Virus record (IMG/VR): IMGVR_UViG_3300042503_002008
Span: 1 to 38,062 of that record
DNA: 38,062 bases
Direction: 5' to 3' (one strand)
Origin: a virus
Made by a program: the position numbers and the translations under genes. The notes under the pieces are model-generated. The model saw only the letters and a program-made list of their open reading frames with translations. It had not been told where the DNA came from and searched no databases. The stretch's first letter is position 1; the number at the start of each line of letters is the position of its first letter. Of the stretch, positions 2,695-31,278 are shown in pieces.

Positions 2695-2724
2695 CGCTCG
2701 TTAAGGTCGCGCAAGGAGGTGACG

Positions 2725-3255
2725 ATGTACGAAGTTGCCTATGTCGCGCTGGCTTGGCTGGCGTCGGACCTTGTGACGGGCTTTGTGCACTGGGTGGAAG
2801 ATCGATACGGAAATCCCGCGTGGCCGGTCATTGGCAAGCACGTCATTGCGCCGAACATTCTGCATCACACAGATCAGCGGGCGTTTCTAGTCGGCGGTTT
2901 CTTTGAGCGGAACTGGACGACACTGTTGCCAGCACTGACGATTGCTGCTGGCTTTGCCTGTGTCGGCTGGTACTGGTTCGCTCTGGTGGCGGGGTTCTCG
3001 GCGTTTGCGAACGAAGTGCACGCGTGGAGTCACCAGAAGTGCAGCCGCGGTATCCGTGGTTTGCAGCTGCTGGGGCTGCTGTGTTCTCAGGAAGACCACG
3101 CGCGGCACCATGAACGCCCGTTTGACTGCTATTACTGCGTCATGACGGGCTATCTGAATCCAGTTCTGTCCTTCATTCGGTTTTGGCCCGGCCTGGAGCT
3201 GTTGCTCGGTTATCCGACCGGCATCTGGCCGCGCAAAGAAAGAGAGCACGCATGA
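2725..3255 (+). CDS. CarF/TMEM189 (Kua)-type lipid desaturase
   Basis: A 176-residue polytopic membrane protein whose histidine pattern matches the CarF/TMEM189 (PEDS1) lipid-desaturase family. Visible elements are VHWVED (H22), NILHH (H47, H48), NEVHAWSH (H99, H103) and EDHARHHERPFDCYYC (H125, H128, H129), then a TGYLNP turn. Eight histidines in this layout are the expected di-metal ligands. Characterised members introduce the vinyl-ether double bond of plasmalogens, acting on 1-O-alkyl ethanolamine phospholipids. Hydrophobic segments lie near residues 1-20, 65-95 and 143-163. AGGAGG at 2714-2719 selects ATG 2725 over the in-frame GTG at 2719. The 3' end overlaps the next gene by ATGA. The family call is firm; substrate and function in infection are unknown. 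It could be an auxiliary gene altering host membrane lipids. Confidence 0.85.
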   Translation: MYEVAYVALAWLASDLVTGFVHWVEDRYGNPAWPVIGKHVIAPNILHHTDQRAFLVGGFFERNWTTLLPALTIAAGFACVGWYWFALVAGFSAFANEVHAWSHQKCSRGIRGLQLLGLLCSQEDHARHHERPFDCYYCVMTGYLNPVLSFIRFWPGLELLLGYPTGIWPRKEREHA

Positions 3256-4094
3256 GCACGAACTTTCGCGATATCTACACGCAGTGGACGCAGAAGCAAG
3301 CAATGCTGTCCTTCGTCATGAAGTCCGCGCGTTGCTGGGCGGGTTACGAGCCGGTCCCGGGCAAAGCGCCTTACAGCGAAGACTCGTGCCGCCCCAAGGG
3401 CAGCAAAAAGAAGAAAGCGCCGAGCGAGAAGAAAGCAGGCCAGCCGTATTCGGGCCCGTACAGCAGTACGGCGTTTGACTCGGCGCACGCCGCGCAGCAG
3501 CTGGGCATGCCCGCGTCGGCAGCTCCGCAACAGGTCTACAACCGGATGATGTACAAACATCGAAACGGACAGTTTACGCCGTCGCAGTTTTCGGCGTTTC
3601 ACTCCAAGTACAACGGTTTGCCGCCGCAGTTCACTCCTCCTCAACCCGCGCCGGTCGCTGCTGCGCCGCAGCCAACCTCTGCGCCGTTAACTGCAATGAC
3701 GCAAAAAGCAGGCTCAAACGAATGCTGCGGCCCGGCGAGTGTGCCCGAGCACACGTCGCAGGAACCGACCAAGCAGATCACGCCCAAGCCCGCGGTGATC
3801 AGTCACAGCAAGCAGGTGCTGACCAGCGACCCGGCGCGTTTCGGCGCGTCGATCAAGGAAGCCATTGCGGGCGAAGGCAAGGGCGAGGAAAAGTACGAGC
3901 CGAAAGGCCCGAAGGCGCGCCTTGGCCAGAGCGTGTTCAATCACGTCGAGAAGAAGCACAAAGAAGAGCTGGATGGCGTGAAGCCGTCCCACGAGACGTC
4001 GAAGCACATCAGCGTGTCGCGCGCTGAGCCTGAAGAATCAGAAGACCTGCGAGCCGAGGAGGTGTTTCCGGACACGCGCCCCTACTCAGACTGA
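3252..4094 (+). CDS. Hypothetical hydrophilic, low-complexity protein
   Basis: 280 residues, not recognised. ATG 3252 overlaps the previous stop (ATGA), so the two genes are probably translationally coupled. An N-terminal 50 residues with Trp/Cys (SARCWAGYEPVPG) leads into a lysine cluster (GSKKKKAPSEKK). A short region, AAQQLGMPASAAPQQVYNRM, resembles a small helical module of the J-domain-like or SAP-like kind. A Pro/Gln linker follows, then a charged C-terminus rich in Lys and Glu. There are no membrane segments. It could be a scaffold or virion-associated protein. The start region carries a GATATC (3270) that does not match the longer repeated motif. Confidence 0.6.
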   Translation: MSTNFRDIYTQWTQKQAMLSFVMKSARCWAGYEPVPGKAPYSEDSCRPKGSKKKKAPSEKKAGQPYSGPYSSTAFDSAHAAQQLGMPASAAPQQVYNRMMYKHRNGQFTPSQFSAFHSKYNGLPPQFTPPQPAPVAAAPQPTSAPLTAMTQKAGSNECCGPASVPEHTSQEPTKQITPKPAVISHSKQVLTSDPARFGASIKEAIAGEGKGEEKYEPKGPKARLGQSVFNHVEKKHKEELDGVKPSHETSKHISVSRAEPEESEDLRAEEVFPDTRPYSD

Positions 4095-5763: not shown

Positions 5764-6297
5764 ATGAACCGCATGGACGCCATTCACACGCTGGTCAGCG
5801 ACCTGCAGAACGAGTACAGCCATCTGTTGTTCTACACGCGGCAGGCCAGCATTGTCGGGGGCATGCACGCCGCCGAGTATCGCGAGTTCTTCGAAAAAGC
5901 CGCCGCCAGCGAGCTGCAGCACGTGCTGGCGTTCCAGGACCGTATTCTCGGCCTGGCGCCCGACATCCGGCTGGGTGGCCATCCACTGGCCGTCGAGCTG
6001 CCGCGTTATGATGCACTGCGCGGATTGACGCCGTTCTTTCATCCTCACGAGGCGCTGGACCACGCGATTCAGCTTGAGACCGACGTCGCGCGGAACTACA
6101 CGCACACGATCCGGGCGCTGGACACCCCAAGCTACGCCGCATTTCCCGAAGCGACGTACCTCAAGATCTTCTACGAAGAACAGCTCAAGGATTCGTACGA
6201 GGATTGCGAACGCATGCGTCGTCTGCGCGCTAACTTCGTGGAGCAGCCGTACAATCGCAGCTGGCGCGACTGGACGCTGAAGTCTGCTGACGAATGA
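5764..6297 (+). CDS. Ferritin-like diiron protein (bacterioferritin-like)
   Basis: 177 residues, almost entirely helical. Candidate metal ligands are E17 (NEYSH), E50 and H53 (ELQHV), E105 (LETDV) and E138/E139 (FYEEQLKD). The spacing E17-E50-H53 equals that of the first bacterioferritin ligands (E18, E51, H54); the last His ligand is replaced by acidic residues (D143). Family members are four-helix bundles that bind two irons and store iron or handle oxygen or peroxide. AAGGAG at 5753-5758 gives a strong ribosome site. It stands after a long leader, 13 bases before the cytidylyltransferase gene. A rubrerythrin-like or purely structural four-helix role is possible; cage formation cannot be judged. 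Confidence 0.7.
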   Translation: MNRMDAIHTLVSDLQNEYSHLLFYTRQASIVGGMHAAEYREFFEKAAASELQHVLAFQDRILGLAPDIRLGGHPLAVELPRYDALRGLTPFFHPHEALDHAIQLETDVARNYTHTIRALDTPSYAAFPEATYLKIFYEEQLKDSYEDCERMRRLRANFVEQPYNRSWRDWTLKSADE

Positions 6298-6310: not shown

Positions 6311-6757
6311 GTGGCACACGTCTACACCTGCGGCACGTTCGACCTGTTTCATCCCGGCCACATTTCGTTTCTGAAGCGTTGCTCGCGGCTGGCTGGGCCT
6401 GACGGCACGCTTACGGTCGGCTTGAACACCGACCAGTTCGTGTTTTCGTACAAGAAGCGGCGGCCGGTCATGCGGTTCGATGAGCGCTGGGAAATGCTCA
6501 AAGAATGCCAGTATGTCACCAAGGTTATTCGCAACGTGGCCGGTGCAGATCTTCGGCCGTCTATCAACGCGTGCAGCCCGCGCATAGATATCATTGCGGT
6601 CGGCTCAGACTGGGCGTGCAAGGACTACTTCGCCCAAACCGGCCTGAGTGACACGTGGCTCGACGGCAACAACATCTTGCTGGTGTACCTGCCCTATACG
6701 CAGGGCATTTCGACAAGCACGCTGCGTGAACGGATCCTGGCCGACGAAGCGGAGTAA
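6311..6757 (+). CDS. Cytidylyltransferase (nucleotidyltransferase superfamily)
   Basis: 148 residues from GTG 6311, preceded by AAAGGAG. The N-terminus TCGTFDLFHPGH holds the HxGH nucleotide-binding signature of the TagD/glycerol-3-phosphate and ethanolamine-phosphate cytidylyltransferase family, and ISTSTLRERI near the C-terminus is the matching signature. These enzymes make CDP-alcohols or nucleotide-sugars from CTP (or ATP) and a phosphorylated substrate. A Phe/Tyr-rich centre (SDWACKDYFAQTG) matches the substrate loop region. Position among glycosyltransferases suggests it activates a building block for a glycan; HldE-type ADP-heptose synthesis is an alternative given the GT9 genes downstream. 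The substrate is not decided. Copy 3 of the GATATC motif lies inside the gene. Confidence 0.85.
   Translation: MAHVYTCGTFDLFHPGHISFLKRCSRLAGPDGTLTVGLNTDQFVFSYKKRRPVMRFDERWEMLKECQYVTKVIRNVAGADLRPSINACSPRIDIIAVGSDWACKDYFAQTGLSDTWLDGNNILLVYLPYTQGISTSTLRERILADEAE
6584..6597 (+). repeat. Directional GATATC motif, copy 3
   Basis: ATAGATATCATTGC inside the cytidylyltransferase gene, read as I-D-I-I-A. Confidence 0.5.
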
Positions 6758-6762
6758 GTCGC

Positions 6763-7476
6763 GTGAAGAAAATTGCGCTGCACATCACGGGGTTTTTGCG
6801 GAACTACCAGTTCTTCACGCGCAGCGAGTTCTACAAGCGGCTCACCAGTGAGTTTGACTGCGATGCGTTTCTTACCGTGTGGGCGGAAGACGGCTACGGC
6901 AGCAACGCAACGTTCAAGTACACGGACAACTTGCTGTCATCGAGCGACATTTACGCAGAGTTCGGAAAACCGCTCGTGTGGCTCTGTCAGCGGAGGTTTT
7001 CCGCGCACAGGGCGCAGTTCGACTACGCGCCAGCGCAAAAGCTCTTGGCGTTAGAGCCACATGTACTGGAGAAATACCGGTCGAAGTTCTTCTGTGTGAA
7101 GCACATGCCGGTGCATCACTACGATGTGCACTTTCACACCCGGCCGGACGTCCTATGGACGCCGGAGCTGGTCGACGGGTGTCTCAAGGCGCTGGCCGAG
7201 TTTGACGCTGCCGCCGCGCCGCTGTTCACCAGTACCGACCTGTATCACCGCGAGGGCTGCTTTGGCGACACGTTTCAGATTGGCTCTAGCGCGCATATGG
7301 CGTGGCTGAAAGGCTTTCATGACAAGCTGTACGATCCGGCGTACTTGCAGCTAGATATTCCCGCAGTGCCCGAGCGCATTCTGGAGCACTATGCGAACGA
7401 GGCAGGGATTGCGCGCGAGCAGCTCCCCGGCACAATTGAGCTGAACAGGACGCGGTGGGCGCATGACAACGTATGA
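6763..7476 (+). CDS. Putative glycosyltransferase
   Basis: 237 residues from GTG 6763, with GGAG at 6751-6754. It opens with KKIALHITGFLRNYQFF, a strand and turn common in viral and bacterial glycosyltransferases that begin IALHISGQLR. A central strand leads to VHFHTRPDVLW near residues 121-131, equivalent to the RxRPD segment of that group. GSSAHMAWLKGF near residue 180 resembles the acceptor-side motif. The family is not named with certainty. Context supports glycan synthesis: it sits between a cytidylyltransferase and a methyltransferase, overlapping the latter by 14 bases. No signal peptide or membrane span, so probably cytoplasmic. Confidence 0.6.
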   Translation: MKKIALHITGFLRNYQFFTRSEFYKRLTSEFDCDAFLTVWAEDGYGSNATFKYTDNLLSSSDIYAEFGKPLVWLCQRRFSAHRAQFDYAPAQKLLALEPHVLEKYRSKFFCVKHMPVHHYDVHFHTRPDVLWTPELVDGCLKALAEFDAAAAPLFTSTDLYHREGCFGDTFQIGSSAHMAWLKGFHDKLYDPAYLQLDIPAVPERILEHYANEAGIAREQLPGTIELNRTRWAHDNV

Positions 7477-8068
7477 CCTAGCACATTTGACGCAAACAAC
7501 GTCTGATGTCGTCGGGCCGATTCAAGATGACGAGGCGTTGTTATTGTACGCGGTAATCAAATGCACGCACGCAACACATGTGCTTGAGGCAGGCGGGCTT
7601 GACGGCTACTCAGCGCGCAATTTTCTTGCTGCATTGGCGGGGTGTTCTGGCATCGTTTATACGGTTGACCCGATACCCGTGGTAAAACGCGGGCCAAATC
7701 ACGTAACAATTCAAAGCTGTATTTCCCAGGTTGATGTTGCCGCGCTGCCGCATTTAGATCTCGTGTTCTACGACTGTCACGTATTTGACGCGACGCTGGC
7801 GTTTCACGAAAAGGCTGTTTCGGCGGGAATCATAGACAGTCGGACGATAATCGCTATACACGACACCGGCTTACACCCGTGTCGCGCCAATGCAGACAGT
7901 GTCGAAGTTTCTCCTGGCTGCTGGGTGCACCAAGCGGTCGAACGGCGGCTTGTAAACAGTTTGGTTGAGCGCGGTTGGCACGCGGTGTGTATACATGCAG
8001 ACTGCGCGCTGCCGCTGCGGCACGGTTTGACGTTGTTGAAACAATTTTCGCCGTTACAAGTTGATTAG
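7463..8068 (+). CDS. Class I SAM-dependent methyltransferase
   Basis: 201 residues. VGPIQDDEALLLYAVIK leads into the SAM-binding motif I VLEAGGLDGYSARNF (residues 40-54), then VYTVDPIPV (acidic residue of motif II) and DLVFYDCHVFDATLAF with IIAIHDTGLHP, matching the Methyltransf_24 layout in which HDT follows a late strand. This group methylates sugars, small molecules or glycan ends. It overlaps the preceding gene by 14 bases and ends eight bases before the next ATG, so it is translated with the glycan genes. A-rich codon choice is slightly higher than in neighbours (for example aca, caa), perhaps showing separate acquisition. The acceptor is unknown. Confidence 0.8.
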   Translation: MTTYDLAHLTQTTSDVVGPIQDDEALLLYAVIKCTHATHVLEAGGLDGYSARNFLAALAGCSGIVYTVDPIPVVKRGPNHVTIQSCISQVDVAALPHLDLVFYDCHVFDATLAFHEKAVSAGIIDSRTIIAIHDTGLHPCRANADSVEVSPGCWVHQAVERRLVNSLVERGWHAVCIHADCALPLRHGLTLLKQFSPLQVD

Positions 8069-8075
8069 GCGCACT

Positions 8076-10196
8076 ATGGCTACTTCAGCGTCATCGCCCG
8101 ACGTGCACGTTGTTGCGGCACACTACAAAGAAGACACCGCGTGGTTAGACACGCTGAGATACCCGCACACCGTCATTTCTCGCGCCGGTATACCTCAAGA
8201 GACCGCGCCTAATCGCGGGAACGAGGTCGGCGTGTATCTGGAGTGGATCGTCAAGAATTACGACGCACTGCCCGATTACACTGTGTTCATTCACGCGCAT
8301 CAGCGTTCACCGCACTGCGCGGGCGACATGGCGCAGATTATCAATCAGCTCGTGTTTGATCGCGAGTACCGCAACATCAATGTCTACCCGCCGATCGCCG
8401 CCGCCTGCTTTCCCGCGCAGCTGGCAATTCTCAACCCCCACAAACACGTAATTGAAGCGGCGTTTGGTATGTCGCTGCCGCTGGAAGAGTTGCGCTTTAA
8501 TTGCTGCGGGCAGTTTTACGTGAGCCGCGCGGCTATTCAGCGCCATCCGCGGCAGGCATATCAGGCCGCGTATGACTGGCTGATGACTACGCCGCTTCAC
8601 AGCAGAGACTCTGGTCGCTTGTTAGAGTACACGTGGCATCTTCTTTTCACTGGCAACATCACAGACATGATTGAACCGCGCACAATTGCTTTCTATCACG
8701 GGCTGGGCGACTGTTCGAACTTTGCGGCGCTGCTCGCGCCGTGTATCGCCACATATGGTGACAAGGTAACCGTGGCGTGTGACGCGACAAAAGTAGCGTT
8801 GTTTGAGGCGTTTGGTATTCCAACCGTGACACCCGAAAGCCAAGAAGCCGCTGCCGCTTTGCCGCACTCGTGGTGGGAGCCGCCAAAGGACGTACCGCCT
8901 GCGGATAATGTGTTCTTCAACAATAAGAACTACCGCGGGATTGACGCGCAGCCGTTTGCGTTACCCGTGCCGCGCGACGAGTTCTGGCAGCGACACGCGG
9001 CGCAATCGGCAGGGCGCTTTAAACAGTACGCGCCGCTTGTAGAGGACTATCTCCGTGATTTGCCTCGGCCGTTGGTGCTGCTGCATAGTCACGGCAATAC
9101 GTCGGCCAGCGAAAAGAGCATGCCGGGAACACTGTCGCGCGATTTCATTGTCGAGTTTCTGCGCTTGTCTGAGGGGTCTGTGCTTGTCGCCGATTGGGAC
9201 AGTCGCACGCCGTGGGTACATTCCGGTCGCGTGCGCAATCTACGGCACCATTGGCCGGAAGATGGCTTTTTGTTGCCGTCGTTGATGGGGCTGATTCACG
9301 CAGTTGATTTGGTTGTGGGCGTGGACAGCGGGCCCTTTCATCTGGCTGGCGTTGTGAACAAGCCGTCGATTGGCGTCTGGTTCCAGCATCATCCAGTCCA
9401 TTATTCGTTGCCGCGGACGCAGTGCCTGAACATCTCGTTTGCCGATACGACTTCGAACATTCGTGGCGCCCGGGCGTTTAACACGGTTCAGGCCGCTGAG
9501 ACGCCGAATCAGGCACGGTATCTGGCTCAAGCCGCAGTTGCGATGCTAGAGTATGAACCGCCATGCCAGCTCACGCGCGCTGAGGACGTGCAACTGCGCC
9601 TGCTCACGGACAAGTGTTTTGGCGGCTACGTTGAGTATCCGGGCGTGCTCCATGCAGGCAATGTTGTTTATGATCGCAGCATCAGTTTCAATTACATGTT
9701 CGATCATCTTTTTAACGGCGGCCCAGGAAAACTGATTGTCGAGACTGGCTGCATCCGCGCGGACAACGACTGGGCCGGGGCGGGGTACTCGACATTCTTG
9801 TTCGGCTTGTTGGCGGCACGCACTCACGGCCGTGTCATCAGCTTTGACATCACGCCGGAATACGTGAACTACGCCAACGACGTCTGCAGGCCGCTGGGCT
9901 GCGTGACGGTCGAGCAGCGTGATTCGGTCGAAGGGATCGCGGCCATCAAGGAGCCGATTAACCTGCTGTATTTGGACAGCATGGACTGTTATGTCCCTGG
10001 ATATGCCGAGCACGGACTACGAGAAGCGCAGGTCGGCGCTGGCCGGGTTGCGCACAACGGGCTCATCGTGTTTGACGACACGCTCTACGAAGGCTCGACG
10101 TGCCGCGGCAAAGGCGAACTCGGCGTGCCTTGGCTGCTAAAGAACGGCTGGAAGGTTGTGTTCGCCGGACATCAGGTCGTCTTGGCGAGGGCGTGA
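8076..10196 (+). CDS. Three-domain DUF3431 / GT9-like / methyltransferase fusion
   Basis: 706 residues. Residues about 1-200 resemble DUF3431: VHVVAAHYKEDTAWLD, then PNRGNEVGVYLEWIVKNYD, DYTVFIHAHQRSPH and an IEP ending. Residues about 205-480 look like a GT9 (heptosyltransferase-type) domain: YHGLGDCSNFAALL, LVLLHSHGNT, then LMGLIHAVDLVVGVDSGPFHLAG, the nucleotide-sugar-binding signature. Residues about 540-706 form a class I methyltransferase: IVETGCIRADNDWAG, VISFDITPEY, LLYLDSMD, LIVFDDTLYEG. ATG 8076 (AGG at 8066-8068) is preferred to the in-frame TTG at 8061. A single polypeptide carrying a sugar-transfer and a methyl-transfer domain would fit glycan elongation with capping. DUF3431 has no assigned reaction; its fold looks glycosyltransferase-like. 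No frameshift is seen within the fusion. Confidence 0.75.
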   Translation: MATSASSPDVHVVAAHYKEDTAWLDTLRYPHTVISRAGIPQETAPNRGNEVGVYLEWIVKNYDALPDYTVFIHAHQRSPHCAGDMAQIINQLVFDREYRNINVYPPIAAACFPAQLAILNPHKHVIEAAFGMSLPLEELRFNCCGQFYVSRAAIQRHPRQAYQAAYDWLMTTPLHSRDSGRLLEYTWHLLFTGNITDMIEPRTIAFYHGLGDCSNFAALLAPCIATYGDKVTVACDATKVALFEAFGIPTVTPESQEAAAALPHSWWEPPKDVPPADNVFFNNKNYRGIDAQPFALPVPRDEFWQRHAAQSAGRFKQYAPLVEDYLRDLPRPLVLLHSHGNTSASEKSMPGTLSRDFIVEFLRLSEGSVLVADWDSRTPWVHSGRVRNLRHHWPEDGFLLPSLMGLIHAVDLVVGVDSGPFHLAGVVNKPSIGVWFQHHPVHYSLPRTQCLNISFADTTSNIRGARAFNTVQAAETPNQARYLAQAAVAMLEYEPPCQLTRAEDVQLRLLTDKCFGGYVEYPGVLHAGNVVYDRSISFNYMFDHLFNGGPGKLIVETGCIRADNDWAGAGYSTFLFGLLAARTHGRVISFDITPEYVNYANDVCRPLGCVTVEQRDSVEGIAAIKEPINLLYLDSMDCYVPGYAEHGLREAQVGAGRVAHNGLIVFDDTLYEGSTCRGKGELGVPWLLKNGWKVVFAGHQVVLARA

Positions 10197-10197
10197 T

Positions 10198-11184
10198 ATG
10201 ACGGACGCCCCGCGCAAGGTCATTTTCCGTAACTTCCAAAGCCCAGGCGATCTCGTGATGCTGCTGTACGGCATCAAGAGTCTTCACGAGTCGCATCCCG
10301 GTAAATTCATTACTGACGTGCATTGCGGCGTCAAAGATATCTTTCTCGGCAATCCGCTGATCACTGATTTAGATCCGCTGGCAACCGACGTGTCGCTCAT
10401 CGAAGCCGACTATCCGCTGATCCATCGCAGCAATGATTACCCGGTGCGGTTTGTCGAGGCGTTCGGCGCCGCAATGGCCGAGAAACTGGGCGTCACGATC
10501 ACGCCAACGCGATTTCAGAGCGCGATTCACATTCTGCCCGAGGAGTACGGCTGGTTCTCCGCTGTGCGCGAGATTCTGGGCAAAGACGTGCCGTACTGGG
10601 TGCTAAACGCCGGGCACAAGTACGACTACACGGCTAAAGCATGGTCTTTCGAGCGGTACCAAGAACTCGTGGATCGCTGCTCGAACGTGTGGTTTGTGCA
10701 GGTCGGGTCGGGCGAGCACGCGCACCCAAAGCTAGAAGGCAAAAACCTGATCAACATGGTGGGCAAAACAGACGCCCGCCAGCTGATCCGCATGGTGCAT
10801 AATGCGTTCGGCGTGATCTCGGGCGTGAGTTTTCCGATGCACCTGGCGTACGCCGTGCCGCCGCATCCACGATTCAAGCGCTCCAGCCGCGCGAACATTA
10901 CACTTGCAGGCGGCCGTGAACCAGCGCATTGGGAGCATGGACCAAACCACCAATTTTTGCACACTTGCGGTATGCTGCCGTGCTGCCAAACTGGTGGGTG
11001 TTGGCGTAGTCGTGTGGTGCCGCTGCAAGACAACGACGACAAAGACGCCGCGCTGTGCTCGCGTCCGGTCGTTATGGCAAACGGCCAGTGGATTGGCGAG
11101 TGCATGGCGCTCATCACGGTCGATGACGTGGCAAAGCTGGTTGAACGGTACATGAGCTATCTGGATTACGAACCCAAGTTCTGA
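10198..11184 (+). CDS. GT9-family glycosyltransferase (heptosyltransferase-like)
   Basis: 328 residues from ATG 10198, one base after the previous stop. It opens IFRNFQSPGDLVMLLYGIKSL, the GT9 N-terminal acceptor-side motif, with a second Rossmann half at YWVLNAGHKYDYTAK. The nucleotide-sugar signature region NMVGKTDARQLIRMVHNAFGVISGVSFPMHLAYAV aligns with the heptosyltransferase motif, but the usual D-S-G before PMH is G-V-S-F here. A Cys-rich stretch (HTCGMLPCCQTGGC near residue 263-276, plus LCSRPV and GECM) may bind metal; it also occurs in a subgroup of proteobacterial and phage GT9 proteins. The enzyme would add a heptose or related sugar from a nucleotide-sugar. It contains GATATC-motif copy 4. 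Confidence 0.78.
   Translation: MTDAPRKVIFRNFQSPGDLVMLLYGIKSLHESHPGKFITDVHCGVKDIFLGNPLITDLDPLATDVSLIEADYPLIHRSNDYPVRFVEAFGAAMAEKLGVTITPTRFQSAIHILPEEYGWFSAVREILGKDVPYWVLNAGHKYDYTAKAWSFERYQELVDRCSNVWFVQVGSGEHAHPKLEGKNLINMVGKTDARQLIRMVHNAFGVISGVSFPMHLAYAVPPHPRFKRSSRANITLAGGREPAHWEHGPNHQFLHTCGMLPCCQTGGCWRSRVVPLQDNDDKDAALCSRPVVMANGQWIGECMALITVDDVAKLVERYMSYLDYEPKF
10333..10346 (+). repeat. Directional GATATC motif, copy 4 (least typical)
   Basis: AAAGATATCTTTCT in the GT9 gene (K-D-I-F). The only copy with TC instead of TG after the core; the 12 central bases AAAGATATCTTT form a perfect palindrome. Confidence 0.45.
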
Positions 11185-11194
11185 AGGAGCAGAG

Positions 11195-11701
11195 ATGGCA
11201 AACTCAGTCGATATTCGTTGGATGGAAGCCGCGTTGATTGCGGCGGCGAACTTCTCCGGCGATCCTCGGACACAAAACGGCGCGGTAATCGTGACGCACA
11301 GTGACGGCGGTTTCTCTGATCGTCACGTACTCGGCACGAACCATTTTCCAAAAAACATCGCCGTGACGCCCGAGCGGCTAGACTCGGCTGTAAAGCTCAA
11401 ATACATGCAGCACGCAGAAAGATCAGCAATCTATAGCGCAGCCGCGCTTGGAATGCCCACGCTTAAAGCCACGATGTATTGTCCGTGGTTTGCGTGCCTT
11501 GAATGCAGCAAAGCCATTATCGGTGCAGGTATCGCGCGTGTTGTCGGCTTGCGCAAGCCGCGGCTGCTTACGCCAGACCGATGGAGCGCTACAATTGCGG
11601 AAGCTGATGCGCTGTTGCACGAGGCCGGTGTTATCACTGACTTTCTGGAAGACGAAATTGGCGTCGAGATTCTGTTCAACGGCGAAAAGGTAGTGATGTG
11701 A
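11195..11701 (+). CDS. Deoxycytidylate-deaminase-like enzyme
   Basis: 168 residues, zinc-dependent cytidine/deoxycytidylate deaminase fold. Zinc and catalytic residues are HAE at 73-75 (QHAERSAIY) and C101-x2-C104 in CPWFACLEC, replacing the more usual PCxxC. The N-terminal helix and DPRTQNGAVIV strand match dCMP deaminases, in which dCMP is converted to dUMP to feed thymidylate synthesis. Without neighbouring nucleotide genes other than the HAD protein, a role in making an unusual base or nucleotide-sugar is equally possible. AAGGAG lies six bases before ATG 11195. It overlaps the following GTG start by GTGA. Confidence 0.82.
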   Translation: MANSVDIRWMEAALIAAANFSGDPRTQNGAVIVTHSDGGFSDRHVLGTNHFPKNIAVTPERLDSAVKLKYMQHAERSAIYSAAALGMPTLKATMYCPWFACLECSKAIIGAGIARVVGLRKPRLLTPDRWSATIAEADALLHEAGVITDFLEDEIGVEILFNGEKVVM

Positions 11702-12114
11702 CTCCACACCGTAAGACCGTCATCGCGCTGGACTTCGACCGCACGTTCACGAGCGACATTCCGTTTTGGCGGACGTTTGTGCTGCATGCGATGGAGCGCG
11801 GGCATGCGGTGTACTGTGTAACTGCTCGGCATGATAACGAGACAAACCGTAAACAGATCGAAGAGCTGTTCGGCCCGGTCGTGTTTCCGCAGCTGGGCGG
11901 CGTAATTTACACCCAGCACCAGTCCAAGCGGGCAATTGCGCAGGGTTTGGGCGTACGGGTCGACATCTGGATTGACGATATGCCCGAGGGTGTAGGCAAG
12001 CAATCCAAGCGCGACTTTCAAAAACACGAGTTACAGCACAAGGTTTACGAAGAGCTGCCTGTCTTCCAGCCCGACGTCGTGTGCCCTACGGAAGTCTGGA
12101 AACCGGCACAATAG
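11698..12114 (+). CDS. HAD-superfamily phosphatase
   Basis: 138 residues from GTG 11698, overlapping the deaminase stop. HAD motif I is ALDFDRTFT (D12 nucleophile, D14 acid), motif II VTAR near residue 42, motif IV WIDDMPE near residue 98; the cap is minimal. Such small phage HAD proteins hydrolyse phosphate esters, often nucleotides or sugar phosphates. Coupling to the deaminase hints that the two act on the same nucleotide pool, although 5'-nucleotidase activity is not demonstrable from sequence. The stop TAG (12112-12114) lies inside GATATC-motif copy 5, and a hairpin with a short T run follows. Confidence 0.8.
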   Translation: MTPHRKTVIALDFDRTFTSDIPFWRTFVLHAMERGHAVYCVTARHDNETNRKQIEELFGPVVFPQLGGVIYTQHQSKRAIAQGLGVRVDIWIDDMPEGVGKQSKRDFQKHELQHKVYEELPVFQPDVVCPTEVWKPAQ

Positions 12115-12124
12115 ATATCAATGT
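12111..12124 (+). repeat. Directional GATATC motif, copy 5
   Basis: ATAGATATCAATGT, overlapping the HAD gene stop and abutting the terminator-like hairpin, 39 bases before the UDP-galactopyranose mutase start. Mostly noncoding. Confidence 0.55.
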
Positions 12125-12148
12125 GCCGCGCTCCGCGGGCACAGTTTT
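12123..12148 (+). terminator. Terminator-like hairpin
   Basis: GTGCCGCG (12123-12130) pairs with CGCGGGCAC (12134-12142) with one bulged base, then AGTTTT. A short GC-rich stem plus four T is a weak intrinsic terminator signal between the HAD and mutase genes. Confidence 0.45.
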
Positions 12149-12162
12149 CATGGAGCTACGTC

Positions 12163-13257
12163 ATGGACGACGTTCTCATTGTGGGCAGCGGTATGTTCGG
12201 CGCCGTCTTTGCCCGGCAGTGCCTCGACGCTGGCAAATCTGTGCGCGTGCTGGAGCGCCGCGATCACGTTGCCGGAAACTGCTACACCAAGAACGTAGAC
12301 GGCATCGAGCAGCACGTCTACGGGCCGCACATCTTCCATACAAACAGTCCGAAGATCTGGGACTACGTTCGGCAGTTTGGCAGCTTCAACAACTTCGTGA
12401 ACAGGCCCAAGGTCAACTACCACAGCAAGCTGTATTCGTTTCCGATCAACCTGTTCACGCTCTACCAGTTGTGGAACGTCTCGACGCCGGAAGAAGCGCG
12501 CGCGGCCCTAGACAAAGTCCGCGTGCCTATCGCTGAGCCCCGGAACCTGGAAGAGTGGGCGCTGTCTCAGGTCGGCGAAGAGCTGTATCAGACGTTCATC
12601 TACGGCTACACCAAGAAGCAGTGGATGCGCGAGCCCCGCGAGCTGCCCGCGTCGATTATCAAGCGGCTGCCCATCCGGCTGAACTTCGACGACAACTACT
12701 TCACGGACCGGTACCAGGGTATTCCAGAAGCGGGCTACACCGCGCTGCTTGGTAATATGCTCGTCGGCGCGCGTATTGAGTTGGGCGTGGACTACCTTTT
12801 GGCGCGCGACTACTGGGACGCGCAGGCTAAAACCGTCGTGTTCACCGGCTGCCTCGACCAGTTCTACGGCTACCGGTACGGCCAGCTCGACTATCGAACG
12901 CTGCGGTTTGAGACATTGCGTGAAAACATCTCGGATTATCAAGGCAACGCGGTGATCAACTACACCGGCAGGGAGCCCTACACCCGCGTCGTTGAGCACA
13001 AGCACTTTGCGGGCGCGCAGACGCCGCACACGCTCGTCACGTGGGAGTACCCCGACGCCTGGCAGCCCAACAGCGTGCCGTACTACCCCATCAACGACGA
13101 CAAGAACAGCGCGCTTTACGCCCAGTACGCCGCCCTCGCCCGCCAAGAAACAAAATACCTCTTTGGTGGGAGACTGGCCGAGTTTAGATACTATGACATG
13201 CACCAGGTGATCGGCAGCGCGCTGACGTCGGCGGCGCAGTTTCTTGGAGTGAAATGA
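12163..13257 (+). CDS. glf: UDP-galactopyranose mutase
   Basis: 364 residues, normal length for the family. The FAD-binding Rossmann start is VGSGMFGAVFARQC with ERRDHVAGNCYTKNVDGIEQ after it. YGPHIFHTN contains the conserved substrate-side His. YTKKQW near residue 149 and the C-terminal RLAEFRYYDMHQVIG, which contacts flavin, are both family hallmarks. The enzyme interconverts UDP-galactopyranose and UDP-galactofuranose using reduced FAD in the cytoplasm, so the cassette can supply galactofuranose. GGAG at 12150-12153 selects ATG 12163. The end overlaps the next gene (TGATG). This is the most securely identified sugar enzyme here and shows that the phage changes or makes a galactofuranose-containing glycan. 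Confidence 0.95.
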   Translation: MDDVLIVGSGMFGAVFARQCLDAGKSVRVLERRDHVAGNCYTKNVDGIEQHVYGPHIFHTNSPKIWDYVRQFGSFNNFVNRPKVNYHSKLYSFPINLFTLYQLWNVSTPEEARAALDKVRVPIAEPRNLEEWALSQVGEELYQTFIYGYTKKQWMREPRELPASIIKRLPIRLNFDDNYFTDRYQGIPEAGYTALLGNMLVGARIELGVDYLLARDYWDAQAKTVVFTGCLDQFYGYRYGQLDYRTLRFETLRENISDYQGNAVINYTGREPYTRVVEHKHFAGAQTPHTLVTWEYPDAWQPNSVPYYPINDDKNSALYAQYAALARQETKYLFGGRLAEFRYYDMHQVIGSALTSAAQFLGVK

Positions 13258-14720
13258 TGGTCTCGTATGATTCGAGCAAGCTGTACGTTTGCGTGACGTA
13301 CACGCCGGAGTTTCAATCGCTTCTCGATAATCTCTGCACGTCGCTGACGCACCCCAACATCGAGATGCACGTCAACCGGGCTGTCTTGCAGACGCGCTAT
13401 GACGGCTTTCGCAGTCGCGGATGGTTTGAATGCCTGAAGCTCAAGCTGCAGTTCTTCTACGCCTTCTTTTCGAAGCTTCCGGACGGCGCTGTTGTCTGCT
13501 CAATCGACGCTGACATCCAGTTTTTTCAGCCGGAGCGGCTGTATGAGCTGAAGCAGCAACTCGACCGCTCGACGCTTGAATGTTACGGGCAGGCCGAATA
13601 CCAGACGCGTTGGATCGACAGGCCGAACACGGGTGTTGCCAACGGCGGGTTTTTCATGCTCAAGAAAACAGCGCGCGTGCTGGAATGGCTGCAGGCTGTT
13701 TTGGCGCAGAACTTCAATCGGCGCTTTCTGGGCGATCAGGAATATCTGAACCACTTTATGCGGCAGAAGCGCGTGCAGTATCAGCTGCTTCCGCCCCAGG
13801 CGTTTTTGCACGGCGGCCCAATCGTGGCAAACGATCTTGGCTTTATCGCGCCAAAACAGCTCGTGATGCACCACGCCACGTACTGTAAGACGGTCGAAGA
13901 GAAGCAGGCGCAGATGACGACGCTGCGGACAATGTGCGGGCTGGCGCCCGTGGACTGGCGCCGCGTGAAGAACACAAACCCGAACGTCGTTGCTTATGTC
14001 GACGGGCGGAACGACAACTCGTATACGCCCGACAAACAGTATGCGCTGGTGTTGTCGCGGTGCACCGAGGACGTGTCATGGGCGGCACAATGGAAAGACA
14101 CGCTCGACGTGTTCGTGTACAGCAAGTGCGGCGCGGCTGAACCCGCGTTCAAAGCGACGTGGCTGACGCTGCCCAACGTCGGCCGCGAATCGCACACATA
14201 CCTGGCGCACATCATCGACCACTACGACAACCTGCACGAGGTCACGATCTTTCTGCAGGGGCGGATCGACGACGCGCAGGCGTATCCGGCTAACCAGCTC
14301 ATGAAGTACATCGAGCCCGCCAAGAAAAACGGGTTCAGCGCGTCACACCTGATGCTGGTCAAGCCGTCGCACTGGGACAACATCAATTTCCTGGCAATCC
14401 CGAAGTACGCGCCGAAAGTGCGGTCCGGCGCCTTACGCATCAATAAAACGGGCTTGCTGGCTTTTGCGCACCGGCATTTCGGCAAGCTGCCGGTGTTAGC
14501 TGTGAGCACCTACACCGGGTGTTTTGCTGTTAGCCGCGAAGCCATCCAGAAGTACCCGAAGTCGTTCTACGTGCAGCTCCGGGATATCCTGGGCGACCAC
14601 AACGACCCTGAAGAGGGCCATTTTATGGAGCGGCTTTGGGCGCACATGTTTAGCGGCACCGCGTACGTGCCGGAACTGCTGGGTATTCCTGAAAACAAGC
14701 GCGATAAGTTTGTGTACTAG
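13257..14720 (+). CDS. GT-A glycosyltransferase fused to a DUF3431 domain
   Basis: 487 residues. Residues about 1-215 form a GT-A nucleotide-diphospho-sugar transferase: YVCVTYTPEFQSLL start, long first loop, and a DxD motif in CSIDADIQFF near residues 82-91, with NGGFFMLKK and GDQEYLNHF typical of GT77-like enzymes. Residues about 255-487 resemble DUF3431: YALVLSRCTEDVSWAAQW, LPNVGRESHTYLAHIIDHYD, VTIFLQGRIDD, and GCFAVSREAIQKYP. It shares this domain with the three-domain fusion at 8076, where DUF3431 is N-terminal, so the domain has been joined to two different transferases in one locus. ATG 13257 (GGAG at 13246-13249) is favoured over ATG 13254. Confidence 0.75.
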   Translation: MVSYDSSKLYVCVTYTPEFQSLLDNLCTSLTHPNIEMHVNRAVLQTRYDGFRSRGWFECLKLKLQFFYAFFSKLPDGAVVCSIDADIQFFQPERLYELKQQLDRSTLECYGQAEYQTRWIDRPNTGVANGGFFMLKKTARVLEWLQAVLAQNFNRRFLGDQEYLNHFMRQKRVQYQLLPPQAFLHGGPIVANDLGFIAPKQLVMHHATYCKTVEEKQAQMTTLRTMCGLAPVDWRRVKNTNPNVVAYVDGRNDNSYTPDKQYALVLSRCTEDVSWAAQWKDTLDVFVYSKCGAAEPAFKATWLTLPNVGRESHTYLAHIIDHYDNLHEVTIFLQGRIDDAQAYPANQLMKYIEPAKKNGFSASHLMLVKPSHWDNINFLAIPKYAPKVRSGALRINKTGLLAFAHRHFGKLPVLAVSTYTGCFAVSREAIQKYPKSFYVQLRDILGDHNDPEEGHFMERLWAHMFSGTAYVPELLGIPENKRDKFVY

Positions 14721-14721
14721 C

Positions 14722-15351
14722 ATGGCAATCGACTTTCAACGCGTTCCGGCGTTCTGCATCAACCTCGACACGCGGCCTGATCGCTGGGCGCAGATGGAGG
14801 CTGAATTCCAAAAAGTGCGCTGGCCGCTTTCACGCTGGCCCGCTGTGCGGCACGACAGCGCACCAGCTCCGAACGTTGTCAAAGAGCACGCAGGCGCGCT
14901 TGATAGTCACCGGCAGCTGTGGCAAAAATGCTTGGACGACAAACTCGACGTGCTGGCGGTGTTTGAAGACGACATCGTGTTGCCATCGAACTTCATTGAT
15001 ATCTTTGCGCGCGCGTCTGCGGAGCTACCCGCAAACTGGGCAATGTGGCACTTGCATTCTTCGCGCGCCAAGACTGCGCCCGCGGGTCAATATCTCGTGC
15101 GCATTCTTTCGTCGATGTGGGGCGCGCACGGCTATCTGATTCGGCCTGCGGCGTGTGCCGCGCTGTTGGCTATCCCTGGTTACGAGCCTGCGGATTATCG
15201 AATGACGAAAACGTATCTAAGCGCCGGTGGCCAGCCGTTGGGCACGGCGACGAGGTCGGCGCTGTGTTTTCAGCGCGGCGACGACAGCGATATCCCAGCT
15301 ACCGCGCAGTTACGCTTTTGGCGAGAGCAGCGGCAAAAATACTGCCGTTAA
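14722..15351 (+). CDS. GT25-family glycosyltransferase
   Basis: 209 residues starting one base after the previous stop. CINLDTRPDRWAQME at the N-terminus and VLAVFEDDIVLPSNF in the middle (DD of the GT25 signature) identify the lipooligosaccharide galactosyltransferase / LpsA-type family. SSMWGAHGYLIRPAACAAL matches the family's third conserved block. These enzymes transfer a hexose from a UDP-sugar to lipooligosaccharide or to hydroxylysine-type acceptors. It closes the glycan cassette; a 346-base gene-free region follows. Contains GATATC-motif copy 6 (F-I-D-I-F-A-R). Confidence 0.85.
   Translation: MAIDFQRVPAFCINLDTRPDRWAQMEAEFQKVRWPLSRWPAVRHDSAPAPNVVKEHAGALDSHRQLWQKCLDDKLDVLAVFEDDIVLPSNFIDIFARASAELPANWAMWHLHSSRAKTAPAGQYLVRILSSMWGAHGYLIRPAACAALLAIPGYEPADYRMTKTYLSAGGQPLGTATRSALCFQRGDDSDIPATAQLRFWREQRQKYCR
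14995..15008 (+). repeat. Directional GATATC motif, copy 6
   Basis: ATTGATATCTTTGC inside the GT25 gene. It extends to an 18-base identity with noncoding copy 2 (5611-5628), although no upstream complement exists here to form the same hairpin. Confidence 0.55.
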
Positions 15352-19672: not shown

Positions 19673-20076
19673 TGACAGACAATGATCTCCAGGAGCGGAT
19701 TCGAGTTTCTCCCGCGCTGCAGGCTCTGCAAAACCAACTCCAGTCGGAGATTAGTTTTCGCGCTCCAGCCGGATTTGACTTCAATCCGCTCTTGGTGATC
19801 TCTGTCATCTCAATCATCGTTCAAATTGTCATTCATTGTCGTGAGAGCCGTGACGAGCAAAGTGTGCGCGCGGCTATGCGAGACCTGCGCGCACTGCCTT
19901 TGCGGCAGCAATTTCGGCTTCGGCGTGCGTTGACCGGCTTATGGCGCGAGAACTATCCGCGCACGACAACACACCAAGAAAACCCACTGATCGACGCGGT
20001 ATACCAGCTCAGCGATAGCGCGGATGACGCCGCGATCGACGAGTTGCTGTGGCTGGCGGCGCAACACAAATCATGA
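19672..20076 (+). CDS. Hypothetical single-span membrane protein
   Basis: 134 residues; ATG 19672 overlaps the previous stop (TGATG). Residues 1-37 are soluble, one transmembrane span follows at about 38-55 (FNPLLVISVISIIVQIVIHC), and the C-terminal half is basic and helical, with LRALPLRQQFRLRRAL. The basic region just after the span suggests it faces the cytoplasm. Coupled to the preceding two-helix protein, so the pair may work together, but no family is recognised. Confidence 0.55.
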   Translation: MTDNDLQERIRVSPALQALQNQLQSEISFRAPAGFDFNPLLVISVISIIVQIVIHCRESRDEQSVRAAMRDLRALPLRQQFRLRRALTGLWRENYPRTTTHQENPLIDAVYQLSDSADDAAIDELLWLAAQHKS

Positions 20077-20104
20077 CCGCATTCTTCGCAAGGACGCGAA
20101 CTAT

Positions 20105-20920
20105 ATGGCAAGGATGCCATCAAAACACCAGCATGTACTGCCTACAGGAGAGATCCTAAAAAAGCTGTACGGCTTTGGGTATTTCGGCACGAAGACTTGG
20201 CAACAGGTCAAAGGGCTCAAAGGCGCAGACCTTGATCACGCCGTGCGCGAATATCAGCGTTTTCACGGTTTAGACCCCAACGGCTCTGTCGGGCCTGAAA
20301 CAGCAAGCGTGCTTTCTCGGCGGCGGTGCGGGTTGCCCGATTTCAATTTTTCGGCGGGCGACGCGGTCTGCAAGTGGCCGCATAAAGAGATCACGTACTT
20401 GCCAAAGATCGTGCTGCCGGGCGTGTCTGCCGAGCAGGTTGTACAGGCTTACGACATTGCTTTTAGCCAGTGGGCAGCGGTGTGCAATTTGGAGCCGAAA
20501 CGCGTCACTGCCGCAAACAAGGCAAACATTCTGGCGCGGTCTGGGAAGGGCAAGAAGAACGGCCTAGACGATCGAGGCGGCACGTTAGCGTGGAGTGAAC
20601 TGCCGTGCGACGTCACAGAAAACGTTCAGCTTGATCAGATGTTTGACGAGGCCGAGGATTGGAGCTTCAATATGGCCGTGGCCGTGATGTGTCACGAACT
20701 CGGTCACGCATTAGGGCTGCCGCATCTCGCCAAGGGCAACCTGATGGCGCCGTACTACGATCCAAACATCACAGAACCGCAGGCAGGCGACATCCGCGAA
20801 ATTCAAGATCTGTATGGCAAACGCGCGCAGCCATATGACGCGATCAAGGACGCGTCGGTGCATCTTGGCGGGACGATCACCATCAATGGCATGCCATACG
20901 TCCTCGTACCAAAAACTTGA
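20105..20920 (+). CDS. Matrixin metalloprotease with peptidoglycan-binding propeptide
   Basis: 271 residues. Residues 10-72 form a PG_binding_1-type helical domain (AVREYQRFHGLDPNGSVGPE). Immediately after is RRRCGLPDF (C75), the same layout as the cysteine switch PRCGVPD of matrix metalloprotease propeptides, in which the Cys blocks the catalytic zinc. The catalytic domain follows, with the matrixin zinc site HELGHALGLPH (H197, E198, H201, H207) and Met-turn NLMAPYY (M214). Only the extension after about residue 240 (HLGGTITINGMPYVLV) is outside the family plan. No signal peptide is seen, so holin-dependent release or virion packaging would be required to reach the envelope. It may attack surface-layer or envelope proteins, or mature virion proteins. 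AAGGA at 20090-20094 precedes ATG 20105 by ten bases. Confidence 0.88.
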   Translation: MARMPSKHQHVLPTGEILKKLYGFGYFGTKTWQQVKGLKGADLDHAVREYQRFHGLDPNGSVGPETASVLSRRRCGLPDFNFSAGDAVCKWPHKEITYLPKIVLPGVSAEQVVQAYDIAFSQWAAVCNLEPKRVTAANKANILARSGKGKKNGLDDRGGTLAWSELPCDVTENVQLDQMFDEAEDWSFNMAVAVMCHELGHALGLPHLAKGNLMAPYYDPNITEPQAGDIREIQDLYGKRAQPYDAIKDASVHLGGTITINGMPYVLVPKT

Positions 20921-25941: not shown

Positions 25942-28900
25942 ATGCCAGATTCGATTCTTCCTGCGCCCGCTCAGCCTCAACAGCGCGCGTTTGGCGATAT
26001 CGGCGCCATTCGCACCAACATCTTCGATCGAGCGCTACAAAGCGCCTCGACGCTTGAGCCTGTTAAGAACGACCTGCACACGCTGCAGCTCTCTGGTGTG
26101 CAATACAGCGGACCAGAGACGTTCACTAAGGCAGATCAGAAAAGAGCTATTCTGACTGGCAGGTCGTTGCAGCGTAGGCTGACCGGCACGTGGAACCTGG
26201 TCGATAATGTAACCGGGCAGACCATTTCTCGGCGGCAGACGACACTGGCGCATGTGCCGTACCTTACGGACTCTGGTACGTTCGTAAACAAGGGCGTTGA
26301 ATACACCCTGGCGCACCAGATGCGGCTGAAACCAGGCGTGTACACGCGCGAGAAAGATAACGGCGAGCTGGAAGCGCACGTTAACGTGTTGCCCGGTAAG
26401 GGCCGCATGCACCGGTACTTCCTGGATCCGAAAACCGGCGTGTTTAAGGTGCAGCTCGGGCAGGCAAACATTCCGCTCATGCCGTTGCTCAAATCTCTCG
26501 GCGCCAGCGACCAAGATATTCGCGCGGCATGGGGAAACGAGATCACAGCAGTCAACATGGAGAAGGGTGATGCGGGCACGCTGGAAAAGCTGTATCAGCG
26601 GCTTGTGTCGCGGCAAGTCCCTGATCTTGACGCCACGGGCAAGCAGAAAGCCCTTGCCGATGAGTTTGCCCGCATGGAGCTTGATGAGAACGTCACGCGC
26701 CGAACGCTTGGCGCTCCACACAAGAACCTAACGCCAGAAGCCATTCTTACCATCACGAAGAAGCTGATCGCGCTCAACCGCAAAGAAGTCGATCCAGACG
26801 ACCGCGACAGCATGCCGTATCAGCACATCGTTGGTCCAGAAGACCTGATTGCCGAGCGCTTCACAAAAGATCGCCAGACACTGCGCGGTTTGCTTTGGAA
26901 AGCCACGGCACGCAAAAATCTTGATCATGTTCCAACGGGTGTGTTTAACAAAGCCATCTCGTCGGCACTGATTGGCTCGGGATTGGGTTCAAGCCTGGAA
27001 GAAATCAATCCGGCTGAGATTCTCGATCATCAGGCGCGCGTGACCCGCATGGGCGAAGGCGGTATCGGCTCGCTTGACGCCGTGCCCGCGGACGCCCGCA
27101 GCGTACAGCCGAGCCATCTTGGTTTCGTCGACTTCTTGCGCACTCCCGAGAGCGGCAAGGTGGGCGTCGACATGCGTTTTGCCAGCGGGGCCAAGAAAGG
27201 TTCGGACGGCAAACTGTATACGCCGGTCGTCGATACCCACACCGGCCAGACAACATACAAGACGCCCGAAGAACTGGCTGACATGCCGCTGGCGTTCCCG
27301 GGAGAAGAGCACAGTGATCTCCCGCAAGTTGCCGCGCTCGTTGGCGGCAAACTCAAATACGTGCCGCGCGAGCAGGCTCGATATGCCCTGCCGCACATGG
27401 ACAACACGTTTTCAAGTCTCGCCAATCTTGTGCCGATGAAGAGCATGATGAAGGGGCACCGCGTAATCATGTGTGCGCGCATGTTTACGCAAGCGTTGCC
27501 GCTTGTGAACGCGGAAGCGCCGCTTGTTCAAAACGCTCTAGCTGATGACTCAAGCAAGTCGCATGACGACGTAGTGGGCACAACACTTGGTGCAGTCAAA
27601 GCGCCCGACCACGCGATGGTCGAGTCGGTCACGCCAGACGGCATCGTGTTGCGCGACCGTAACGGCAAGCGCCAAACGATCGACTTGTACAACAACCACC
27701 CGTTCAACCGGAAGACGTTCTGGCATCAGACGCCGACCGTCAATCCTGGCGACGTTGTGAAGCCCGGGCAGCTGCTGGCACACTCGAACTTCACTGATCA
27801 GCAGGGCACCGCCGCGCTTGGTATGAACATGCGCACTGCGTACTTGCCGTTTCAAGGCAAGAACTATGAAGACGCCGTGGTAATCAGCGAGTCGGCCGCC
27901 AAGCGCTTGACCAGTCAACACATGTACCAGCACGAAGCTGAGTGGGATGACACGTCAAAGATCGGCAAGAAAGCGTTTATCTCGTTGTTCCCGGCCGAGT
28001 ACGACAAGAAGCTACTCGACAACTTTGATGACCAAGGCGCCATCAAGCGGGGTACCGTTGTCAACCACGGCGACCCGCTCATCCTTCAGGCAAAAGAACG
28101 CGAGACGACATACGGCAAAGTGCACCGCGGCCGCGCCGGAAGTTTCTCTAACGACACGGTCACATGGGATCACCATTCGCCCGGTGTTGTCACAGACGTT
28201 GAGCACACCGACAAGGGCGTCAGCGTTGTCGTGAAAAGCATGGCAGAGATGCAGGTCGGCGATAAGATGACCGGTCGTTTTGGCGACAAGGGCGTCGTGG
28301 CGGACATCATTCCCGATCACCGCATGCCGCACGACAAAGACGGCAACCCGTTTGAAATTCTGGTCAGTCCGCTGGGATTGATCAGTCGCGTGAACCCTGC
28401 GCAAGCGATTGAAACTGCGCTTGGCAAAGTCGCTGCAAAGACTGGGCAGGGTTACAAACTCAAAGACTTCGACTCTTCAAACGATCTCGTAGACTTTGCC
28501 CAGAAAGAGCTTGGGAAGCACGGCCTCTCTGATACTGAGGACGTCGTTGACCCGGAAACCGGTCGTAAGATTAAGGGCGTGTTGACCGGTAGCCGGTACT
28601 TCATGAAGCTGCACCACACGGCCGAGGCAAAGGGCCAGGGCCGCGCGATGGGCAGCTATACCGCGGAAGGTACTCCGGCCAAGGGCGGCAGTGAAGGCGC
28701 TAAGCGCGTTGGCATGCTCGATCTTGGCGCGCTGCTCAGTCACGGCGCCGGAAAAGTGATCCGCGACGCCAAAATGGTGAGAGGGCAGGCAAACCCCGAG
28801 TACTGGTCGCAATTCATGGCTGGTTACTCGGCTCCGTTGCCGAAGATCCCGCATGTGTACGAAAAGTTCGTGTCGCAGCTGCAGGCGTCGGGTATTAACC

Positions 28901-31036: not shown

Positions 31037-31276
31037 GTGCGCGTAAAGTTGCAGCACAACCTGCAACCCCACGAACAAAAGGCCCACAGCATCGTCATTG
31101 AAGACGACGCTGGCAATCCGATTTTTGTGGCGTTGCAGCTTGATGAGTCGATTGTTTACGCAGATGCGCGGGAGCCGGACTTCCACGCTATGTTGCGCGC
31201 GGCTGGAGTCGATAAGACTGTCGCTGTAACAGAAGTGCGGCCGAAGCCAATGCAGAACTTGCTCTGGACGCCGTGA
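31037..31276 (+). CDS. Small hypothetical protein
   Basis: 79 residues from GTG 31037, two bases after the previous stop. A beta-rich start, HSIVIEDDAGNPIFVALQLD, is followed by a helix (DFHAMLRAAGV) and a basic end. Family not recognised. It overlaps the GTG candidate start of the beta' C-terminal gene (GTGA), so it is probably translated with it. Confidence 0.5.
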   Translation: MRVKLQHNLQPHEQKAHSIVIEDDAGNPIFVALQLDESIVYADAREPDFHAMLRAAGVDKTVAVTEVRPKPMQNLLWTP

Positions 31277-31278
31277 CC

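Follow-up and report, generated by a model that had tools for sequence, protein, structure and literature searches.

The closest described relatives of the protein considered here are the plasmalogen-forming desaturases PEDS1 (TMEM189) and CarF, and the plant desaturase FAD4. In mouse PEDS1, eight histidines are essential: H96, H121, H122, H187, H191, H215, H218 and H219 (Werner et al. 2022, PMC8960569). Mutation of D100 leads to a total loss of activity, while mutation of F118 leaves 5.9% and the H131A substitution leaves 7.4% (PMC8960569). F118 is among the residues that are totally conserved between PEDS1 and FAD4 (PMC8960569). The ninth histidine (mouse H131, CarF H113) is specific to PEDS1 and is absent from FAD4 (PMC7149458, PMC8960569). 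Homologues from plants and Alphaproteobacteria that lack the ninth histidine do not complement CarF in M. xanthus (reviewed in PMC9131029).

The gene described here is found in a 38,062-base virus record, the whole of which is referred to as the window. Its assignment as a phage-encoded PF10520 lipid desaturase is well supported, and its product very probably alters membrane lipids. To our knowledge, few phage genes rewrite membrane lipids. A literature search combining phage with plasmalogen or PEDS1 returned nothing about a phage-encoded enzyme.

Gene and family assignment

The reading frame begins with the ATG at 2725 and ends with a TGA at 3255. Given its ribosome binding site, the overlap of its stop codon with the next start (Table 1) and a dN/dS of approximately 0.13 in comparison to a 96% identical relative, L002 (16 synonymous and 7 non-synonymous changes), this is a real, maintained gene under purifying selection. 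The gene that follows had no family match in Pfam or PHROGs, and a relative of it was found in L002 only.

Table 1. Features of the desaturase locus, with window coordinates
Feature	Position	Strand	Basis or remark
Ribosome binding site AAGGAGG	2713..2719	+	5 nt before the desaturase ATG; read from sequence
Phage Lipid_desat (PF10520) membrane di-iron desaturase, 176 aa	2725..3255	+	Pfam 137.9 bits, E 4.6e-40; model pLDDT 95
H22 ... D26 (mouse PEDS1 H96 ... D100)	2788..2802	+	Mapped by spacing and by alignment to the published residues
N44 (mouse F118, not kept) and H47-H48 (mouse H121, H122)	2854..2868	+	Published positions
G57, place of the ninth histidine (mouse H131, not kept)	2893..2895	+	Nine residues after H48; published positions
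H99xxxH103 (mouse H187, H191)	3019..3033	+	Published positions
H125xxH128-H129 (mouse H215, H218, H219)	3097..3111	+	Published positions
Next gene	3252..4094	+	ATG overlaps the desaturase stop (ATGA)

A sequence-only reading of this DNA had proposed a phage-encoded lipid desaturase of the CarF/TMEM189 type, to be checked by a profile search. At the level of the CarF/TMEM189/FAD4 family the proposal is borne out, as the Pfam score for PF10520 is far above the gathering cut-off of 26.4 bits and the match extends over the full domain (profile positions 2–174 of 175). Nor is the protein closer to an unrelated hydroxylase family by profile. The FA_hydroxylase profile (PF04116) gave 21.1 bits, which is under its cut-off of 31 and 117 bits below PF10520. 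Sequence searches of the PDB and of plasmids each identified no relative of the desaturase.

The sole NCBIfam match, to the CarF equivalog NF045946, reached 101.8 bits where the cut-off demands 500; that threshold was set for the full-length model of 269 positions and therefore disadvantages a short protein. The CarF profile aligned only from position 61 onward, thus the N-terminal segment is missing from the window protein. The same model was matched by all 59 rows of a diverse alignment, with seven members that were scanned singly scoring 62–97 bits. The match therefore marks the superfamily and not PEDS1 function. As a practical consequence, automatic annotation could label the window protein a plasmalogen enzyme at one fifth of the curated cut-off score. 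A PHROGs search returned no match, and the virus-dominated branch of PF10520 to which the protein belongs is no named group in PHROGs.

Active-site residues

Residues were mapped from the published mouse PEDS1 positions and their spacing, and not from a direct alignment with PEDS1, CarF or FAD4. Mapped in this manner, all eight essential histidines noted by the sequence-only reading are present and the essential aspartate accompanies them. The spacings H96-D100, H96-H121, H187-H191 and H215-H218-H219 of the mouse enzyme are matched by H22-D26, H22-H47, H99-H103 and H125-H128-H129. None of the family-essential histidines is missing; exactly eight histidines, H22, H47, H48, H99, H103, H125, H128 and H129, are invariant in 59 aligned relatives. 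In a larger, redundant set of 135 rows (81 viral and 54 cellular), the eight histidines and D26, four residues after H22, are invariant throughout.

Two further positions differ from PEDS1. The place of F118 is occupied by asparagine in 80 of 81 viral and 51 of 54 cellular rows, and the place of H131 is without histidine in 80 of 81 viral rows, both counted in the redundant set. A PF10520-like protein from another viral contig (L142) also has no ninth histidine. Among the 81 viral rows, phenylalanine at F118 and histidine at H131 occur together only in L005 (8001–8456), from the 595-kb phage LR756511. This Lipid_desat protein bears the PEDS1-like signature that is missing from the window protein. 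As a weak test of absence, the strict CarF-type motif HHxDPTAxxxH was searched against viral contigs and occurred in two unrelated frames only; two strict patterns with the phenylalanine and the ninth histidine, an equally limited test, had no matches in viral contigs.

Membrane layout and predicted structure

The AlphaFold model, calculated from 57 aligned sequences, had a mean pLDDT of 95.2 and a pTM of 0.89. Hydropathy identified hydrophobic stretches at residues 3–24 and 63–96, and the model places helices at 2–28, 59–79 and 83–92. Together, these predictions suggest about three membrane helices versus the four shown for CarF. The CarF-like membrane layout that had been proposed is thus retained in part: membrane helices are predicted, but the predictions point to about three rather than four, and the N-terminal part of the profile is absent.

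The best solved match in the PDB was Scs7p, a membrane di-iron fatty acid hydroxylase, and it is a moderate one since the Foldseek E-value of 0.14 is above 0.001 and the VIA-align Z-score of 6.4–6.5 is under 8 (rmsd 4.2–4.4 over 145–148 residues; next unrelated chain, Z 2.9). Among viral proteins, the best structural match was the Harvfovirus lipid desaturase A0A3G5A308 (E = 3e-6, TMq 0.66, 22% identity). Such a fold is consistent with a membrane di-iron enzyme; it does not distinguish a desaturase from a hydroxylase.

Distribution and phylogeny

Relatives were found in two of 50,697 deposited phage records, Erythrobacter phage vB_EliS-L02, where the copy is annotated 'hypothetical protein', and LR756511. 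A search of IMG/VR found 118 viral loci, of which 80 were kept. GTDB contigs yielded 55 loci, assigned to Hyphomonadaceae, Sphingomonadales, Verrucomicrobiota, Planctomycetota and several less frequent groups. When 96 genomes were drawn from Verrucomicrobiota, the phylum of the Brevifollis seed, the seed genome was the only positive. Some planctomycete MAG contigs appear to be the very DNA of IMG/VR contigs, as with L087 and L077, which match in length and coordinates, so these MAG contigs may be binned phages.

In a 64-row tree, the clade that contains the window protein consists of 28 viral rows and a single MAG contig (support 95/96) and stands apart from the rare bacterial homologues. The Erythrobacter phage copy clusters with Sphingomonadales (96/83). 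The AU test does not reject a single origin for all the viral copies (p 0.21–0.22), so independent acquisition by the Erythrobacter phage and by the huge phage is no more than a suggestion. The desaturase is a recurrent viral accessory gene that is widespread among unrelated phages. As a small, single-gene, clade-forming desaturase present in more than 100 viral contigs and without a PHROGs family, it is easy to express and test.

Genomic neighbourhood

The window encodes a fused RNA polymerase, PhoH, a dCMP deaminase and a set of envelope-sugar genes. As judged by tblastn of the window genes against the other loci, the neighbours of the desaturase are shared with L002; elsewhere, recurrence is limited to PhoH, which L003 and the Erythrobacter phage also have, and to a few isolated genes. 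In other viral carriers, the genes near the desaturase include those for terminase, portal or integrase. Since the neighbours differ between loci, the gene seems to travel by itself. No lipid operon was common to the neighbourhoods of the bacterial homologues. At five alphaproteobacterial and verrucomicrobial loci (L097, L099, L134, L137 and L138), the desaturase is followed, some 2.5 kb downstream, by the gene for a protein of around 143 aa that we take to be SufE-like.

Several other window genes may be described. A phage multisubunit RNA polymerase is encoded by two ORFs: one of 1457 aa at 25942–30315 joins beta to an N-terminal portion of beta', and a second at 31273–33153 encodes a later part of beta'. 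The nearest sequences are from Salmonella phage Arash and Vibrio phages D181, D148 and D69 (approximately 32% identity over 97–98%). These closest relatives are in phages of 180–187 kb, in which the desaturase search gave no match. The envelope-sugar cluster (6311–15351) contains a cytidylyltransferase, a heptosyltransferase-like GT9, a UDP-galactopyranose mutase, a GT25 and two DUF3431 domains. Near the desaturase lies a ferritin-like domain protein (5764–6297; PF00210, 26.9 bits). A cupin protein (102–542) matches a PHROG labelled cysteine dioxygenase, and a matrixin-type metallopeptidase with a peptidoglycan-binding domain (20024–20920) is a possible lysis or virion enzyme.

Candidate reactions

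With asparagine in place of F118 and glycine in place of H131, the residues favor acyl-chain desaturation of a host membrane lipid, best read as a phospholipid, in a FAD4-like or undescribed reaction, over the vinyl-ether reaction of PEDS1 and CarF, and this is the reading we consider probable. On this reading the product is a small di-iron oxygenase of the PF10520 family, integral to the membrane, whose histidines would bind two irons on the cytoplasmic side. Using O2 and electrons supplied by a host donor, the enzyme would desaturate a hydrocarbon chain in a membrane lipid of the infected host; the scan of window proteins revealed no recognisable electron donor. The changed membrane may in turn serve assembly, the exclusion of other phages or lysis.

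Plasmalogen synthesis, the activity put forward by the sequence-only reading, was set aside as the default on the basis of N44, G57 and the equivalog score. A true PEDS1/CarF function, that is, delta-1' desaturation of an alkyl ether phospholipid to a plasmalogen, can draw on membership of the same Pfam family with the eight histidines and aspartate kept, and on the CarF equivalog being the only NCBIfam match. The absence of the ninth histidine is also not an absolute bar, since mouse H131A keeps 7% activity. Against this function are the score of 102 bits for a 500-bit cut-off, the two altered residues and the failure of homologues without the ninth histidine to replace CarF in M. xanthus (PMC9131029). 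Plasmalogen activity therefore does not follow from the family match; from its residues, the window protein is unlikely to make plasmalogens, and we regard the PEDS1/CarF function as improbable. With vinyl-ether activity unsupported, the accompanying hint at a host that makes ether lipids is left without support as well. Hydroxylation or another lipid oxidation (of a fatty acid, lipid A or a hopanoid) by the same di-iron core appears somewhat less improbable, though still unlikely. It would fit the weak FA_hydroxylase match, the Scs7p hydroxylase as the best solved fold and the presence of envelope-sugar genes further along the window; however, that profile match is below its curated cut-off and far under PF10520, and desaturation is the activity of both PF10520 groups that have been characterised.

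A bacterial gene in transit that plays no part in infection would account for the different neighbours among the viral loci and for carriage by so few of the deposited phages. Set against this are the number of IMG/VR loci, a viral clade of its own, the low dN/dS with an operon-like overlap, and retention with purifying selection across the viral clade, which together make such a passenger very improbable. Beyond the acyl-chain desaturation favored here, a more tentative proposal is that phages possess a third PF10520 desaturase class of their own, with a long history of diversification, asparagine for F118 and no ninth histidine. In infected cells such enzymes might make an unsaturated membrane lipid that is as yet undescribed, and their genes might have been exchanged between unrelated phages, temperate as well as large.

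Comparison with known systems

Cyanophage lipid desaturases belong to the classical fatty acid desaturase family and not to PF10520. Like the window gene they are phage-encoded, and they are described as auxiliary metabolic genes (work cited in PMC11480375 and others). The Harvfovirus protein A0A3G5A308 likewise has a virus-encoded lipid desaturase domain and a similar predicted fold, but it comes from a giant virus of eukaryotes.

Within PF10520, PEDS1/TMEM189 and CarF share with the window protein the domain, the eight essential histidines and aspartate, and their spacings. They differ in that the window protein has no ninth histidine, has asparagine for F118 and has no N-terminal segment before the domain. 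FAD4, the plant delta-3-trans phosphatidylglycerol desaturase, resembles the window protein in its PF10520 domain, its eight histidines and the lack of the ninth (PMC7149458, PMC8960569); in contrast, a comparison by published positions places phenylalanine at F118 in FAD4 and asparagine in the window protein. The alphaproteobacterial and verrucomicrobial PF10520 proteins (e.g. L119 from Hyphomonas, L126 from Novosphingobium and L110 from Brevifollis) agree with the window protein at both positions, with asparagine for F118 and no ninth histidine, at roughly 31–43% identity. Unlike the window protein, they are mostly longer (about 175–230 aa), are encoded in cellular genomes and fall in separate clades.
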